The notes under the pieces are model-generated. The model worked only from the letters and a program-made list of their open reading frames with translations, ran no database searches and was not told where the DNA came from. A program made the translations under genes and the position numbers. Shown piece by piece: positions 7,246 through 57,326 of a DNA stretch of 57,510 nucleotides. Positions within the stretch are counted from its first letter, which is position 1. The number at the start of each line of letters is the position of its first letter. Source of the stretch: Pseudomonadota bacterium. GTDB taxonomy: Bacteria; SZUA-182; DTGQ01. The stretch lies in contig DAOURK010000011.1 of NCBI GenBank assembly GCA_030625085.1, positions 1 to 57,510 of the forward strand. The letters are read 5' to 3'.

Positions 7246-7611
7246 TTTGTCGCTTTACCTGCTTATAGTTTTTGATTAACCCGATATCATTTAGTATATC
7301 AACTTGCTCTAAATAATATTTTTTTGATTATAGTGGTTGATTTTTCCTCACAAGGAAACAAAAGACTTAGATGTACTCTTTGCCTCTCATGTGTCTTTTT
7401 GATGCTTATTTTTTTATCGAATATATATTATTTTTTTTATTGGAAAATAATAGTACAAAATGGGGAAAAATTCAATTGTTTTATTATAGCCAACTATAGA
7501 CTTGGCCAAAAGTGGACATACAAACATGTTTATCCTCTCTGAATTGACCTAGCTATGGAGCTTTAAGTAAAGAGGCTAGTATTAGCTTGTTAAGCCAGGT
7601 TAAAAGTGTGG

Positions 7612-7625
7612 CGACATTTTTGTCG
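7612..7625. promoter_or_regulatory. Distal palindromic activator-like site
   Basis: CGACA then a four-base T-rich spacer then TGTCG, a symmetric site that shares its half-site with the larger palindrome at 7705-7736. It lies about 190 bp upstream of the sigma-54 promoter at 7804, a typical distance for an upstream activating sequence bound by an NtrC-family regulator. The binding protein is inferred, not shown. Confidence 0.5.
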
Positions 7626-7704
7626 AATTTTTTCACATATCTAATTGCAAGGCTGAATCCCCTTATTAAGAAATAAATTTTGGTAAAGTGATCTATGAAC
7701 AGGA

Positions 7705-7736
7705 GACAGTTTTCGACAATTTTGTCGAAAACTGTC
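7705..7736. promoter_or_regulatory. Proximal palindrome, likely activator binding site
   Basis: Two 15-base arms, 7705-7719 and 7722-7736, are perfect inverted complements with two bases between them. The core is CGACAATTTTGTCG, the same half-site as at 7612-7625. It ends 68 bp before the -24 element of the sigma-54 promoter. It is not followed by a T-tract, so it is unlikely to be a terminator. Confidence 0.55.
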
Positions 7737-7803
7737 TTAACATATAAAAAAGGGAATTGAATAATTTCTTTATTTACATTGGGTTATAAATTTTTTAGTG
7801 GGT

Positions 7804-7819
7804 TGGTATGGAGTTTGCA
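7804..7819 (+). promoter_or_regulatory. Sigma-54 (-24/-12) promoter
   Basis: TGGTATGGAGTTTGCA fits the sigma-54 consensus TGGCACN5TTGCW, with GG at 7805-7806 and GC at 7817-7818, the exact canonical spacing. Transcription should start near 7830. Two palindromic sites upstream and a sigma-54 activator gene 2.7 kb downstream support the call. Confidence 0.7.
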
Positions 7820-7829
7820 ATGAATAAAA

Positions 7830-8050
7830 AACATAGATTGAACATACCAGTAAAAACATAATATTATAATAGAGGAGGTGATAAAATAGAAAATTATTAA
7901 TTTAGTTTGTTCTCCTTCGCCATACTTTTTTAAAAGGAATTTTTTACACAAAAAGAGAAAGGGGGTGATAAAACAAGAATTTATTTCTCTTACAGATTAG
8001 ATATATTGGATATAATGAAAAAAAAGGCGGGGTTTCCCCGCCTTTTTTTT
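7830..8050 (+). ncRNA. Candidate sigma-54-dependent small RNA
   Basis: The stretch between the sigma-54 promoter (start near 7830) and the terminator (8018-8050) is about 220 nt. It contains no ATG-initiated frame of note. It carries two extended Shine-Dalgarno-like motifs, AGGAGGTGAT near 7875 and GGGGGTGAT near 7963. These are followed only by tiny frames (an 11-codon frame from the GTG in the second motif). This could be a regulatory RNA or a leader/peptide RNA. No known RNA family was recognised. Confidence 0.5.
8018..8050 (+). terminator. Rho-independent terminator
   Basis: GGCGGGG (8026-8032) pairs with CCCCGCC (8036-8042) across a TTT loop. It is preceded by a run of eight A and followed by a run of eight T. 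It would end the sigma-54 transcript. Confidence 0.85.
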
Positions 8051-8097
8051 CTCATTTTTTTGTAACCGATTAAAAATATGATGGCAATTTCATTAAC

Positions 8098-8282
8098 TTA
8101 AGCTATGCTCAGTGCTCTTTGTCATTTGGAGCACATACACTACGTTTAGTGTAAATTCTGCGAGAAATCTTGTTTTGACTTATGTGTAGTGTAAACTCTG
8201 CGAGAAATCTTGTTCTGACTTACGTGTAAGGATTTCTCGTCGCTAACGCTTCTCGAAATGACACGCCGGAATTCGTTAACTT
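8098..8282. repeat. Dispersed repeat copy with internal 40-bp tandem duplication
   Basis: Contains the GAGAAATCTT / AAGATTTCTC / CGAAATGAC words of the dispersed family found at 16137, 16312, 25970, 38235 and 43661. Here a 40-base unit beginning TAGTGTAAA and including TCTGCGAGAAATCTTG is repeated in tandem at 8147-8186 and 8187-8226 with few differences. The rest of the gap to 8627 shows only a short AGCTTAA triplet near 8580-8610. Confidence 0.6.
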
Positions 8283-8627
8283 AATGGTATTGAGTATGAT
8301 AATTTTATTTTTATGGAGGAAGCCCTTTACTAAAGTGAGTATTTATGAGTATTTGAATGGTAAGGGAGGTTAAAGGTAGCGTTGCCGGTTAGTACCTTGA
8401 GCTTACATGATCTAATAGGCTATAATAACTTGTTATTATCTTTGTCCCACATTTAATGCTGGATAAACTCAAACAGGGATTTAACGTAATTGCACAGATA
8501 TTTTTATTTTTTATGCAACTTGCCGGGTTTTAATGATAAACTTATAAGCTGATGATTTGTTAAATAAATAATTTTTTTCAGCTTAAGAGCTCAATAGCTT
8601 AACAGCTTAATCTAATAATAATTGAAA

Positions 8628-10385
8628 ATGAAAAAGACAAAAAAAAGAGATTTTTTCTGGACTTATGCCACGGCAAGTATTTTTTTATTTATTATTGTGA
8701 TGGGTTTACATAGCCTGTGGCAGATAAAAAGGGGGAAAAAGGCTTTATATAAGGTTTTATATGATCAAGGAGAGGCCCTTGTGGAAAGTCTTCAATCCAG
8801 TGGGAAAAATGCCATTATTTCCAATAAATTGGCTCAGGATATTTTGATCAATCGTTTGCTCGATAATGCCGGATTAATAGATATGTTAATTGAACAAACC
8901 GGCTATAACAGCAACCTTCTCAAAGAGATTGTCGCTAAAAATAAGCTATTCTGCGTTCAGGTATTAGATCGATTGGGAAGGGTAATGCTTGATTCCAAAG
9001 CGCCTTCTTCCCCGGATATTTTAAACTGGCTGCCTCAGCATCAAGAGGCTATTCGCATGGGGATTGCTCCTATCCTCAGGGGAGAAAAAAACGTTATGGT
9101 GGAGGGAATAGGCCGGGAACAACCTGTTTTGGAGAATCTTTTCTGGGTGGCTATGGCTCGAAAAAATTTTCAAGGGGCTATCATTATCCATGTAGATGCT
9201 TATTATATGGATCGATTTCGCAAAGAAATCGGCATCAGGAAATTGATAAGCGACCTGGCCGAGCAAAAGGGGATTCGCTATATTAGTTTCCAGGATCGGG
9301 ATAATAATTTTGTTGCTCCTGAGGACATATCTCCATCAAAGTTGGAAAACATTCACCATCATCCTGATTTTGTTCGGGCGGGATTTCATCATCTTAGCTC
9401 CGGAGAAGAGGTTTATGAAATCATCAAACCCTTTCTGTTTAAGGATCGAGTACTGGGGCTTTTTCGTGTGGGACTTTCTTTAGATAAATTTATGCTCAAT
9501 ATTCGTCAGACACAAAAACATGCCATTTGGTTTAGTTTATTGGTAATTACCCTTGGCAGTGGTGGTTTAATACTCATCTTTTATCATCAATACATTCAAT
9601 ACAAAAGGCAGAAAATACAGGAGAAAATTTTGCAGCGAACTGAACGGCTGAATTCCATCGGTAAATTGGCGGCCGGAGTTGCCCATGAGATTCGAAATCC
9701 TCTTAATGCCATTGGCATGACTATTCAAAGGCTTCAGCACGAATACCTCCCCGAATCCAAGGAAAATAAACATGAATTTATTCATTTTACTACCATTATC
9801 AGAGAAGAGGTAAAGCGGGTAGATAAGATTATTGGTAATTTTCTTAATTTTGCTCGGGAGCCGAAACGTGAACTACAACAAGTGGACCTATCGTCCATAC
9901 TTGATAATATGCTATTAATTTTTGCTGCTGAGGCTGAAAAACAGAAGGTGAAGATATATACCGAGTATACACATTCTCCCTTGCACTGCTGGTGTGACAA
10001 AAATCAGATCAAGCAAGCTTTGATTAATATTATTCGTAACGCTATTCAAGCCATGCCTGATGGAGGTGAGATTTTTGTAAAGGTCAGTCAAAGGCGGGAT
10101 AATATTTTAATTTCAGTAAAGGATACAGGTGTAGGTATTGCCGATACGGCCAAGATTTTTGAGATTTATTACACCAGCAAGGAGGGTGGGGTAGGTGTCG
10201 GTCTGCCTATCTGCCAAAAAATTATTGAGGATCATGGTGGGAAAATCGAAGTAAACTCAAAAGTGGGAGAAGGCACGGAATTTCTTATCCTCCTTCCCAA
10301 TAAGCCGGTAAAATCTTCGGTAAAGTCTAACCATGTGAACCGCAAAGGTGAATTTGGAGCCAGAAGTCAAAAGATTTCTTCTTAG
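8628..10385 (+). CDS. Membrane sensor histidine kinase (ZraS/NtrB-like)
   Basis: Two-component sensor. A TM segment near residues 13-28 is followed by a periplasmic-type sensing domain of roughly 270 residues and a second TM (FSLLVITLGSGGLILIF). The HisKA domain follows, with the phospho-acceptor in GVAHEIRNPLN (His near residue 353), then the ATPase domain with the N-box (IIRNAIQAMPDGG), DTGVGI and GVGLPICQKI. The ATG at 8628 is chosen over a TTG two codons earlier. It lies 143 bp before an NtrC-type regulator, its presumed partner. The last residues (KISS) and the stop codon fall within a copy of a dispersed repeat, so the C-terminus may be altered. Confidence 0.88.
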   Translation: MKKTKKRDFFWTYATASIFLFIIVMGLHSLWQIKRGKKALYKVLYDQGEALVESLQSSGKNAIISNKLAQDILINRLLDNAGLIDMLIEQTGYNSNLLKEIVAKNKLFCVQVLDRLGRVMLDSKAPSSPDILNWLPQHQEAIRMGIAPILRGEKNVMVEGIGREQPVLENLFWVAMARKNFQGAIIIHVDAYYMDRFRKEIGIRKLISDLAEQKGIRYISFQDRDNNFVAPEDISPSKLENIHHHPDFVRAGFHHLSSGEEVYEIIKPFLFKDRVLGLFRVGLSLDKFMLNIRQTQKHAIWFSLLVITLGSGGLILIFYHQYIQYKRQKIQEKILQRTERLNSIGKLAAGVAHEIRNPLNAIGMTIQRLQHEYLPESKENKHEFIHFTTIIREEVKRVDKIIGNFLNFAREPKRELQQVDLSSILDNMLLIFAAEAEKQKVKIYTEYTHSPLHCWCDKNQIKQALINIIRNAIQAMPDGGEIFVKVSQRRDNILISVKDTGVGIADTAKIFEIYYTSKEGGVGVGLPICQKIIEDHGGKIEVNSKVGEGTEFLILLPNKPVKSSVKSNHVNRKGEFGARSQKISS

Positions 10386-10396
10386 CGTTCGAAATG
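10365..10396. repeat. Dispersed repeat fragment covering the kinase stop codon
   Basis: The words AAGATTTCTTC and CGTTCGAAATGACAAAT match the core of the MITE-like families seen elsewhere in the window. The fragment supplies the last codons and the stop codon of the sensor kinase. Confidence 0.55.
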
Positions 10397-10528
10397 ACAA
10401 ATTTGCCAAAAACGATTTTTTGTGAATTCATCAAAATAAGAATTGCTGATAAAGGAGGATGAAAATACACCTTTCTCTTCCTCCCTCTTGATAAGGGAGT
10501 GGGGGTGATATTTTCTCATGAAATTTAT

Positions 10529-11899
10529 ATGTTCAATATTTTAATCGTAGATGATGAAAAAAATCAGCGGGAGATGCTGAAGGGATTTCTTGCAAAAAAA
10601 GGGTATCATACCTTGGTCAGCAGTAATGCTAAAGACGCATTGGCTGTAGTCAGGGAAGAGCAAATTGATATGGTCTTGACTGATTATCAGATGCCCGGCA
10701 TGACCGGTCAAGAATTGATGCAGGAGATAAAAAAGATTAATCCCTTTATCCTGGTGGTTATTTTTACTGCCTACGGGACCATTGAACGAGTGGTAACTGC
10801 TATGAAAAGCGGGGCCTACGATTATTTAACCAAGCCGATTGATCTGGATGAATTGTTGATTGTTATCCAAAGAGGGGTAGATTACCTGCATCTGGTTGAA
10901 GAAAATCGTGAATTACGCGATGCGCTTTCCCAACGATATTCCTTTAAAAATATCATTAGCGGCAGTGGGAAAATGGAAGAGGTTTTAAGTATGGTCAGCC
11001 GGGTAGCAAGGGCGGATACCACGGTGCTGATTCGTGGTGAAAGTGGGACCGGCAAAGAATTAATCGCCCATGCTATCCATTTTAATAGTCTGCGGGCAAA
11101 ATGTTCCTTTATTAAGGTTAATTGCGCGGCTTTGCCTGAAAATCTTCTGGAAAGCGAATTGTTCGGTCATGAGAAAGGCGCTTTTACCGGAGCGATTCAG
11201 CGCCGCATAGGGCGTTTTGAGGAAGCCGATAGGGGCTCCATTTTTCTGGATGAAATCGGGGATATGTCTTTGGCCTTACAAGCAAAGCTTTTGAGGGTGC
11301 TTCAGGAAAAGGAAATTCAACGGGTTGGCGCAAATAGCAGCCTTCGGGTGGATGTTCGCATTATTGCCGCCACCAATAAAGACTTGGAGCAGGGAATTAA
11401 GGAAGGAAGTTTTCGTCAGGATTTGTATTATCGCCTCAATGTAGTACCTGTCTTTTTGCCTCCCTTACGAGAGCGTAAGGAAGATATTTTGCAATTGATT
11501 GATTTTTTTCAGGAAAAATATAACCGCCAATGTCAAAAGCAGGTCAAGGGTGTGACCAAGGAGGTCCGGGACCAGCTGTTTAAATATAGTTATCCCGGTA
11601 ATGTGAGAGAATTGGAGAATATCATGGAACGGGCAATTGTCTTGACCCGTCATGAATATATCACCTTGCGAGATCTTCCACCAAATCTTATTTCAGATTT
11701 ACAGGAAAAGGATTTGGCTCTTGGGTATATCGGATCGGATCCGTCTTCTTTGGAGGATTCGGTTTTAGCTTTAGAAAAAGAATTGATTGACAGGGCGTTG
11801 CGCCTCAGTGATGGAGTCCAGACAAAGGCCGCCGAATCTTTGGGCATAAGTGAGAGAGTTTTGCGCTATAAGATAAAAAAGTATCAAATCGGCAATTGA
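10529..11899 (+). CDS. NtrC-family sigma-54-dependent response regulator
   Basis: Transcription activator. It has an N-terminal receiver (acid pair Asp8-Asp9, phospho-acceptor Asp52 in LTDYQMPG, Lys in LTKPID) and a central AAA+ domain with Walker A GESGTGKE, the sigma-54 contact loop GAFTGA and Walker B IFLDEIGD. The C-terminal Fis-type helix-turn-helix contains TKAAESLGISERVLRYKIKKY. The ATG at 10529 puts MFNILIVDDEKN at the start; a GTG at 10499 would add an atypical 10-residue extension. The preceding gene encodes its probable kinase. The palindromes and sigma-54 promoter at 7612-7819 are plausible targets. Confidence 0.94.
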   Translation: MFNILIVDDEKNQREMLKGFLAKKGYHTLVSSNAKDALAVVREEQIDMVLTDYQMPGMTGQELMQEIKKINPFILVVIFTAYGTIERVVTAMKSGAYDYLTKPIDLDELLIVIQRGVDYLHLVEENRELRDALSQRYSFKNIISGSGKMEEVLSMVSRVARADTTVLIRGESGTGKELIAHAIHFNSLRAKCSFIKVNCAALPENLLESELFGHEKGAFTGAIQRRIGRFEEADRGSIFLDEIGDMSLALQAKLLRVLQEKEIQRVGANSSLRVDVRIIAATNKDLEQGIKEGSFRQDLYYRLNVVPVFLPPLRERKEDILQLIDFFQEKYNRQCQKQVKGVTKEVRDQLFKYSYPGNVRELENIMERAIVLTRHEYITLRDLPPNLISDLQEKDLALGYIGSDPSSLEDSVLALEKELIDRALRLSDGVQTKAAESLGISERVLRYKIKKYQIGN

Positions 11900-38777: not shown

Positions 38778-39057
38778 GTCTTTAATTTAATTTTTATACG
38801 ATAGGTAAGGCAAGGGAAAGAGCGCCAAAAAATGACAAGGAGTTGATAGAGTTTACTCAGAAAACTCTTGAACTAAAGTTTTAGCCGTTAATCAAGGAAC
38901 TGCTTGCCTGGCCGGTATAAGCCGTTCTGTCGGGAGGGAGAGATCAGCATGGCTATTCTCTCTAGATTAAAGGGGGGGAGGTGAAAAAAGGTATAAGGAA
39001 TAAAATCGTCATCAAAAAATTAGGAATATTAGAATTCTAAAAAAGGAGAGAGGAAAA

Positions 39058-55862: not shown

Positions 55863-56633
55863 AATCTTGATCATTAAGTTTTTTAATATAACTAACCTTA
55901 ATGAAACCTACGTTCTCATCAAGTCTTCAGATGATTAAGCAGCCCGCCTACTTTATATAGATATTGGCGCCAACATAGGTGTAATAAAGGTTATGACACT
56001 ATCCATATTTTTTAGGGAAAAGCAGATTAATACTTGCTTTAAATATTCAGTATTTTCTATAAAATTGAAAAATCTATATCATTTTCATTTGGTATAAATC
56101 TTGCCCTAATAAAATAACGAGCATACTTTAAAAATTTGAAAAAAATAAATAAAAAGGAGGTGTTGCGTAACTATCAGAAATCAATAATACTATTTTCCAA
56201 TTCACTCTAAATTGCACTGTTGTATAGTTAACTCACGCTAATACTCTTCGAACGCGTTGAAGGCACAAAGGAAGGTTTCAGTTAGACTACTGCACCTATC
56301 TTCCTATTCTTTCTCCCCAGCCCTCGAAAATATCCCCGGCAAATCTGGTATTCTGGTATTCCTGCAGTTGGTTCTATCAATTGTTACGTTTTTAGTGAAA
56401 ATCTTTATTTAAAGGCTGGATGCGAAAAGGGTAACCTGAATGAATTATTTAAATTTCAGGCAACAGCAATGTACGCTCCAGGTCTTGTGAACTGTTGATG
56501 GTTATATAGTGGCAACGCATTGAAAAAAAGGGAGGTGAAAAGGGGAAAATAAAAGCCAAGAACATAGTAAAAAGCCAAGAGAACGTTGAAATCTTTAGAA
56601 CTTATTTGCGGATGGGAAAGGAGAATTTTCAAA
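55863..56633. other. Long upstream region of the proline-rich protein gene
   Basis: About 770 bp without a supported gene. Two Shine-Dalgarno-like motifs are not followed by useful starts: AAAGGAGGTG at about 56154-56163 and GGGAGGTGAAAAGG near 56531. No promoter or terminator was identified with confidence. Confidence 0.35.
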
Positions 56634-57326
56634 ATGATGATCAAGAAGAGACTCTCATGGTTATTTTTAATAACAGTTACCTTATCAGTCGCTTTATTCT
56701 TAATTTATTCACCCATAGTTCAGGCGCAAAACTGGACTGCCTTACCTCCTTATGATACATTATGGCCGTTATGGTCGCCGGCTCTATCGCCTGTTGACCC
56801 TGTGAGCGGGATACCGGTCCCCATAGTAACTGAATTAACCGCACTTACTAACTTGCCTGTTCAGCCCGGATTAACCTGGAACCCTTCATTGAGCTATCCA
56901 TGGCTCCTTTATAATTCACCACTGGGTATGGCCTATTTTGATCCAATCGGCGGTGTTGATTTATGGCCCCCTCCAAGTTTAGTAAAACCAAATGGCTCCA
57001 TCTTGGTTCTTGAACTTCCAACAGACTACGAAACATTGCCGGTTACTCCGTCGAGTTTTATAACGGATTACCTCCCACTGGCCAACCCTGCGGCTATAGG
57101 TTTTCTATCAATTTTTCCGGGGGCATTTAAAGGTGGTATACTTCCTGTCTATTTAGGTGCATCCGCACTTCTTCCTCCTCCGATTATTCCTCCACCCGTA
57201 CCTTCCATTGCCGTTCCGCTTCCTATTCCTCCTGTCCCCCTTCCTACAGGTATTGTTGCTCCTCCCATCATAACAACTGTACCGGCGGCTATTTCAGGAA
57301 TATTCTTTTTTCCTCCTATTTTTTAA
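56634..57326 (+). CDS. Proline-rich secreted protein, unknown function
   Basis: A protein of about 230 residues. The ATG at 56634 follows GGAG and gives a signal peptide (LSWLFLITVTLSVALFLIYSPIVQAQ); an in-frame TTG 48 bases earlier is less likely. The mature part is rich in Pro, Leu, Ile and Trp (ALPPYDTLWPLWSPALSPVDP). It ends in a Pro-dominated tail (LPPPIIPPPVPSIAVPLP, VPLPTGIVAPP). No family recognised. It is probably an extracellular or envelope protein of structural kind. It is the last gene; nothing further is seen to 57510. Confidence 0.6.
   Translation: MMIKKRLSWLFLITVTLSVALFLIYSPIVQAQNWTALPPYDTLWPLWSPALSPVDPVSGIPVPIVTELTALTNLPVQPGLTWNPSLSYPWLLYNSPLGMAYFDPIGGVDLWPPPSLVKPNGSILVLELPTDYETLPVTPSSFITDYLPLANPAAIGFLSIFPGAFKGGILPVYLGASALLPPPIIPPPVPSIAVPLPIPPVPLPTGIVAPPIITTVPAAISGIFFFPPIF

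Follow-up and report, generated by a model that had tools for sequence, protein, structure and literature searches.

What is transcribed from the stretch ahead of a sensor kinase and NtrC-type regulator gene pair, and what would an RNA do that carries two extended Shine-Dalgarno (SD) sequences with no gene behind them? The question is raised by a locus within a 57,510-nucleotide stretch of DNA (the window), which corresponds to contig C122 in an assembly of 4.94 Mb (G000) and for which a sequence-only reading had proposed a sigma-54-driven small RNA. Three further genomes of the same family (G001, G002 and G003) serve for comparison, giving four genomes from three genera. The explanation favoured here, with a probability of roughly 0.6 when taken as a whole, is that the locus encodes a sigma-54-dependent non-coding RNA which is controlled by the adjacent pair and acts as an SD decoy. 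That a regulated RNA is under the control of the adjacent kinase/NtrC-type pair is judged highly probable from the arrangement of the predicted elements, and the decoy mechanism of this SD-mimic RNA is advanced tentatively, at a little short of even odds.

The promoter region, the RNA unit and the adjacent operon

The features of the locus are collected in Table 1. The two palindromes with a CGACA/TGTCG core described in the sequence-only reading are both present, the second having 16-bp arms (7704-7719 and 7722-7737) and not the 15-bp arms first given, which were one base short on each arm. With up to one mismatch allowed, CGACANTTTTGTCG is found in the window only at 7612-7625 and 7714-7727, compared to 0.02 occurrences expected, and the NtrC-type regulator is likely to bind the first palindrome. 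The relatives retain the second palindrome as well, often with one half weaker. Located between the palindromes and the promoter, the CTTTATTT box is found in all five promoters bearing such a pair and is possibly a DNA-bending element or a site for a third protein. The -24/-12 element stands as it had been claimed (TGGTATGGAGTTTGC at 7804-7818, with GG at 7805-7806 and GC at 7817-7818) and displays the GG-N10-GC spacing of sigma-54-dependent promoters. Since the pattern TGGYAYNNNNNTTGC occurs three times in the window versus 0.41 expected, the element alone is weak evidence, and its weight comes from its conservation, with an equivalent at five loci, rather than from rarity. The paired upstream palindromes are accompanied by a nearby gene for an NtrC-type activator with a predicted sigma-54-contact motif; this regulator bears GAFTGA (G[AS]FTGA in the relatives), and an RpoN-box sequence is present in the window's own genome.

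Table 1. Predicted features of the RNA locus and of a second target (window positions unless another locus is named)
Feature	Position	Strand	Remarks
UAS1 palindrome, GCGACATTTTTGTCGA	7611..7626	+	Sequence pattern; kept in G001, G002 and G003
UAS2, core CGACAATTTTGTCG	7704..7737	+	Perfect inverted repeat, 16-bp arms; 102 bp from UAS1
CTTTATTT box between UAS2 and promoter	7768..7775	+	
Sigma-54 (-24/-12) promoter, TGGTATGGAGTTTGCA	7804..7819	+	Equivalents present at five loci
Predicted non-coding RNA, about 221 nt	7830..8051	+	Start placed 12 nt past the -12 GC
SD-mimic motif 1, around GGAGGTGATAAAA	7871..7886	+	-19.4 kcal/mol with 16S tail; 0/200 shuffles
SD-mimic motif 2, AAAGGGGGTGATAAAA	7958..7973	+	About -22.5 kcal/mol with 16S tail; 0/200 shuffles
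Intrinsic terminator	8017..8051	+	Perfect 16-bp arms 8017-8032/8036-8051, T8 run
Sigma-70-type promoter of the kinase-regulator operon, TTGAGC-N18-TATAAT	8397..8426	+	
Membrane sensor histidine kinase (HisKA + HATPase_c)	8628..10385	+	Orthologues adjoin RNA gene in G001, G002 and G003
NtrC-type response regulator (receiver, sigma-54 AAA+, Fis-type HTH)	10529..11899	+	Orthologues in G001 and G003
Second target: palindrome pair + sigma-54 element before 198-aa protein gene	L052 4269-4399 and 4659-5255 (G000:C227)		

The order of these elements is the same in all three relatives, namely a palindrome pair with its sites about 100 bp apart, the CTTTATTT box, the sigma-54 element, an RNA with two SD-like motifs, a GC-rich terminator and the kinase, with the regulator following the kinase wherever the extent of the contig allows. 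The kinase orthologues are 62-66% identical to that of the window, and the regulator orthologues of G001 and G003 are 75-77% identical; the kinase of G002 is split by a contig end, its remainder being located on another contig. The proposed control of a small RNA by the pair encoded at 8628-11899 is supported by this arrangement, in which the unit adjoins an orthologous kinase/NtrC pair in each of the four family genomes and the palindromes and promoter are retained wherever the regulator is retained. The palindrome-pair pattern has five matches in 386 genomes, all of them in the four family genomes, and kinase matches below E = 1e-60 in 290 genomes are confined to these four and two distant matches (31-36% identity). 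A DNA search of the relatives with the whole locus returned only short pieces (terminator, palindrome and unrelated stretches) and is uninformative because the sequence of the locus is too diverged.

The fifth palindrome pair is found on contig C227 of the window's genome, before the gene of the 198-aa protein listed in Table 1. This protein has a Cys-rich N-terminus and its gene is followed by GspE- and GspF-like genes; no match to it was found in Pfam or NCBIfam, and its PDB matches are weak (best E = 0.009). In the three relatives, a short gene of about 61-70 aa is divergent from the RNA gene (L053 579-791, L054 5686-5892, L055 1878-2063). With the 68-aa divergent protein of G003 as the query, none was found in the window's genome, and similar short frames are present in G001 and G002.

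The predicted transcript is 220-260 nt long across the four genomes. The strong terminator claimed at 8018-8050 proves to be a perfect hairpin, and GGCGGG..CCCGCC terminators occupy the corresponding position in the three relatives. The description of some 220 nt devoid of a coding frame also holds, with only frames of up to 15 codons in the window, at positions not common to the relatives, and with no protein-coding frame conserved among them; the longest frames across the four RNAs range from 15 to 32 codons and lie at differing places. Between G001 and G003, the closest pair, the transcript bears frame-breaking gaps, yet is better conserved than the sequence on either side. Between genera, the RNA body has strongly diverged and a common structure is not established. 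The fold energy of the window RNA (z = -2.95) is mostly accounted for by the terminator. A search of Rfam returned no family at gathering score, and the sub-threshold matches fall mostly on the terminator and palindrome.

As strand and order are identical in the four genomes and read-through of the terminator is possible, the transcript might be construed as the 5' leader, or attenuator, of the kinase-regulator operon rather than as a free RNA. The terminator is strong, however, and a gap of roughly 150-575 nt follows it, in which a TTGAG[AC]-N17/18-TATAAT promoter precedes the kinase in 4/4 genomes. This conserved sigma-70-type promoter of the operon, located 3' of the RNA terminator, marks the RNA as a separate unit, and its reading as an operon leader is weak and highly improbable. 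Also located between the terminator and the operon promoter, at window positions 8141-8220, is a 40-nt tandem repeat with 90% identity.

Shine-Dalgarno-like motifs on the RNA

The two anti-SD-complementary motifs that had been reported on the RNA, GGAGGTGATAAAA at 7874 and GGGGGTGATAAAA at 7961, are confirmed, and both lie within a 26-nt direct repeat whose copies are 81% identical and 87 nt apart. Paired with the 16S 3' tail (GGATCACCTCCTTTCT, read from G003 (L099) only and used for all four RNAs), the eight SD-like motifs of the four RNAs each form 11-14 bp with energies of about -18 to -23 kcal/mol, and none of 200 dinucleotide shuffles per RNA attains the energy of the best or second-best motif. 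By comparison, for the best sites of 63 ORFs sampled from the window and the other loci examined the median is -9.1 kcal/mol and the most extreme value -17.0 kcal/mol, and all eight motifs are stronger than any of these ribosome-binding sites. According to the predicted folds, part of each motif is base-paired (unpaired 0.24-0.53), and accessibility there is usually low relative to the rest of the RNA. A pattern for SD pairs following TTGC proved uninformative in 386 genomes: its gap range excludes the window, and most matches outside the family resemble coding sequence or ordinary ribosome-binding sites.

In the RNAs of the window and G002, no start codon is suitably spaced from either motif. 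In G003, motif 2 is followed by ATG TGA and motif 1 is overlapped by frames of 29-32 codons, and in G001 motif 2 is followed by ATG AAA TAA, as would befit motifs that drive very short peptides or start-stop minigenes, with the RNA serving as a small mRNA or as a trap for initiating ribosomes. Such frames are, however, not common to the genomes, G001 and G003 differ by frame-breaking gaps, and the window and G002 lack a suitably placed initiation codon after either motif, which leaves this account weak and very improbable. The twice-repeated, short G-rich motifs could otherwise be seeds that base-pair with C-rich stretches of mRNAs or sRNAs, making this an ordinary antisense-type sRNA, but the match is to the 16S tail itself, at up to 14 bp, and goes beyond a generic G-rich seed; such pairing is considered rather improbable.

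The repeated motifs also invite comparison with RNAs that sponge CsrA or Hfq. Neither CsrA (PF02599) nor Hfq (PF17209) was found in any of nine genomes of the class by searches that were positive in control genomes. As these nine genomes are 88-97% complete, missing sequence is unlikely to account for the absence from every one of them, and a very divergent CsrA or Hfq would escape such a search. Models of the Csr/Rsm and CrcZ types were rejected on this ground, and sponging through CsrA or Hfq is unlikely here.

Related motifs in the leaders of exported-protein genes

The SD-like motif, without a start codon, recurs in sense orientation ahead of exported-protein genes at distances of 40-380 nt, a porin and a pilin gene among them. 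A scan of about 657 kb of the window's genome revealed additional extended SD-like sites that are not followed by a gene start, and these cluster in the leaders of genes with signal-peptide-like starts. Set A is the discovery set, and the independent sets comprise 400 kb more of the same genome (B) and 400 kb of G003 (C); the exported class was delineated by a crude hydrophobicity rule for signal-peptide-like starts and does not include flagellin. At -14 kcal/mol, sites are present in 22/69 exported compared to 19/193 other leaders in set A, in 10/40 compared to 13/138 in set B (p = 0.015), and in 10/32 compared to 16/118 in set C (p = 0.032). The enrichment is thus weaker in the independent sets than in set A; at -15.5 kcal/mol the values are p = 0.088 (B) and p = 0.067 (C), and set C spans p = 0.012-0.067 across energy cut-offs. 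A matrix derived from the sRNA motifs gives p = 8.2e-6 overall (score 11), with set B alone not significant (p = 0.26-0.51).

The bias is also evident in strand. In the three sets together, exact GGRGGTGR is found in sense in 17 of the 141 exported leaders and in antisense in one, and in 11 and 13, respectively, of the 458 leaders of other genes (Fisher 1.7e-5). An unbiased ranking of 8-mers in exported leaders places GGAGGTGA first, with 11 sense and 0 antisense occurrences. Most of the leader sites are not ribosome-binding sites of short genes, because among the 22 occurrences of GGRGGTG in exported leaders a start codon is placed at the ribosome-binding distance in 4 and at a control distance in 3. 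A general excess of sigma-54 promoters ahead of exported-protein leaders is absent, as is the enrichment in the distant control genome G055, among only 15 exported leaders. Given that several cut-offs and motif definitions were tried and that set A was the discovery set, the association of the motif with exported-protein leaders is likely, but not settled.

Individual sites may be noted in addition. AAGGAGGTG is present in the flagellin leader of G000, about 170 nt upstream, and in that of G002, about 134 nt upstream, where a 21-codon frame follows it. Extended SD-like motifs are found in the window at 38977, 41183, 56159 and 56533, and elsewhere in L139 (5912, 6114 and 6209), L102 (16859), L103, L112 and the leader of L147 6705. 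These sites lie tens to hundreds of bases 5' of genes for exported (porin-like, Tyr/Gly-rich) proteins and for flagellin, mostly without usable start codons, and several such leaders contain two extended motifs roughly 75-135 nt apart. At window positions 56090-56104, a sigma-54-like element, TGGTATAAATCTTGC, precedes an orphan AGGAGGTG by ~50 nt, the two being located upstream of the exported-protein gene at 56634.

The presence of the motif in long leaders of exported-protein genes would also fit a stabilising role, in which a 30S subunit bound close to the 5' end would protect the RNA against 5'-3' decay and the regulatory part lies elsewhere, for example in a 3' stretch. A precedent exists in cry3A mRNA of Bacillus thuringiensis, whose STAB-SD does not initiate translation but binds the 3' end of the 16S rRNA and obstructs RNase J1 (PMC4113751). 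The motifs described here share its complementarity to the 16S 3' end and its lack of a start codon, motif 1 lies 17-46 nt from the predicted 5' end, and a 3' stretch immediately 5' of the terminator, TATCCTCGAAGGGCATAAAAGAGATTTTGATAC (L053, L054), is invariant or nearly so between G001 and G003. This stretch is, however, absent from the window and G002, and 4/4 genomes retain motif 2 at a more internal position (by 75-126 nt), where it would be superfluous for a 5' barrier alone. Stabilisation as the sole role of the motifs is considered unlikely; stabilisation and decoy action can both be true.

The proposed circuit and known systems

The anatomy of the locus and its conservation argue for a circuit composed of kinase, regulator, paired sites, sigma-54 promoter and a separate RNA. 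When active, the kinase would phosphorylate the regulator, which would occupy both palindromes and cause the sigma-54 promoter, located about 75 and 180 bp downstream of them, to open. An RNA of 220-260 nt would then be synthesised up to the intrinsic terminator, with the kinase-regulator operon transcribed apart, from its sigma-70-type promoter. Bearing two extended SD copies and no conserved start codon, the RNA would function as a decoy, or sponge, for a factor that reads the same motif, likewise without a start codon, in the 5' leaders of mRNAs for exported proteins. As neither CsrA nor Hfq was found, this reader would be the 30S subunit, through its 16S rRNA tail, or an RNA-binding protein of another kind, yet to be described. 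Switching on the RNA would alter the expression of surface and secreted proteins. The sequence elements, their synteny and the strength and recurrence of the motifs are observed directly, and from these we infer transcription, regulator binding, decoy action and the direction of the effect.

A bolder and more doubtful generalisation is that, in this lineage, where neither CsrA nor Hfq is detected, an RNA under two-component control may mimic the 16S-complementary leader motif of exported-protein mRNAs and titrate the ribosome or an undescribed leader-binding protein away from these mRNAs, in effect a Csr-like sponge built on the SD itself. Searches of an open-access library revealed no description of such an RNA in the titles and abstracts listed, which is no proof of novelty. 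CbrAB-CrcZ already exemplifies a two-component system with an adjacent sigma-54 RNA under its control; the difference here is that an extended ribosome-binding sequence without a gene behind it forms the repeated element and that the usual sponge targets were not found in these genomes. Should the link to the leaders be real, it would represent a new coupling of environmental sensing to surface-protein expression and would point to a hitherto undescribed reader of start-codon-less SD motifs.

Of known systems, crcZ is a separate, sigma-54-dependent and CbrB-activated unit adjoining cbrAB in Pseudomonadaceae (PMC8871633). The likeness extends to the sensor kinase and NtrC-type regulator, to the neighbouring RNA as a unit of its own with a predicted promoter of the same type, to the conserved synteny and, as CrcZ titrates a translational regulator, to the proposed decoy action. 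CrcZ is, however, encoded downstream of cbrB and acts on Crc/Hfq, whereas the present RNA lies upstream of the kinase, its repeated motif is SD-like and Hfq, the titrated protein of the CrcZ type, was not found. The sponge RNAs of the Csr/Rsm systems (CsrB, RsmY and RsmZ) combine repeated GGA-containing motifs that resemble mRNA leaders with two-component control. Repeated, GGA-containing, leader-like motifs beside a two-component system are found here too, but with a sigma-54 promoter, with no CsrA in nine class genomes and with no Rfam match at gathering score.

The Qrr RNAs (LuxO) and GlmY/GlmZ (GlrR) are sigma-54-dependent and activated by NtrC-type regulators, the Qrr RNAs acting by Hfq-dependent pairing. 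In the GlmY/GlmZ system, glmS is the pairing partner of GlmZ, and RapZ is titrated by GlmY (PMC7073468). Activation through sigma-54 and an NtrC-type protein is the feature shared with these RNAs, and the absence of an Rfam match sets the present RNA apart. The STAB-SD, finally, offers the likeness of a non-initiating SD matching the 16S tail in an mRNA leader, a resemblance that is drawn here at the level of sequence; the STAB-SD belongs to a Gram-positive mRNA leader, whereas the motif described here also occurs in two copies on a predicted free RNA that has a regulated promoter of its own.
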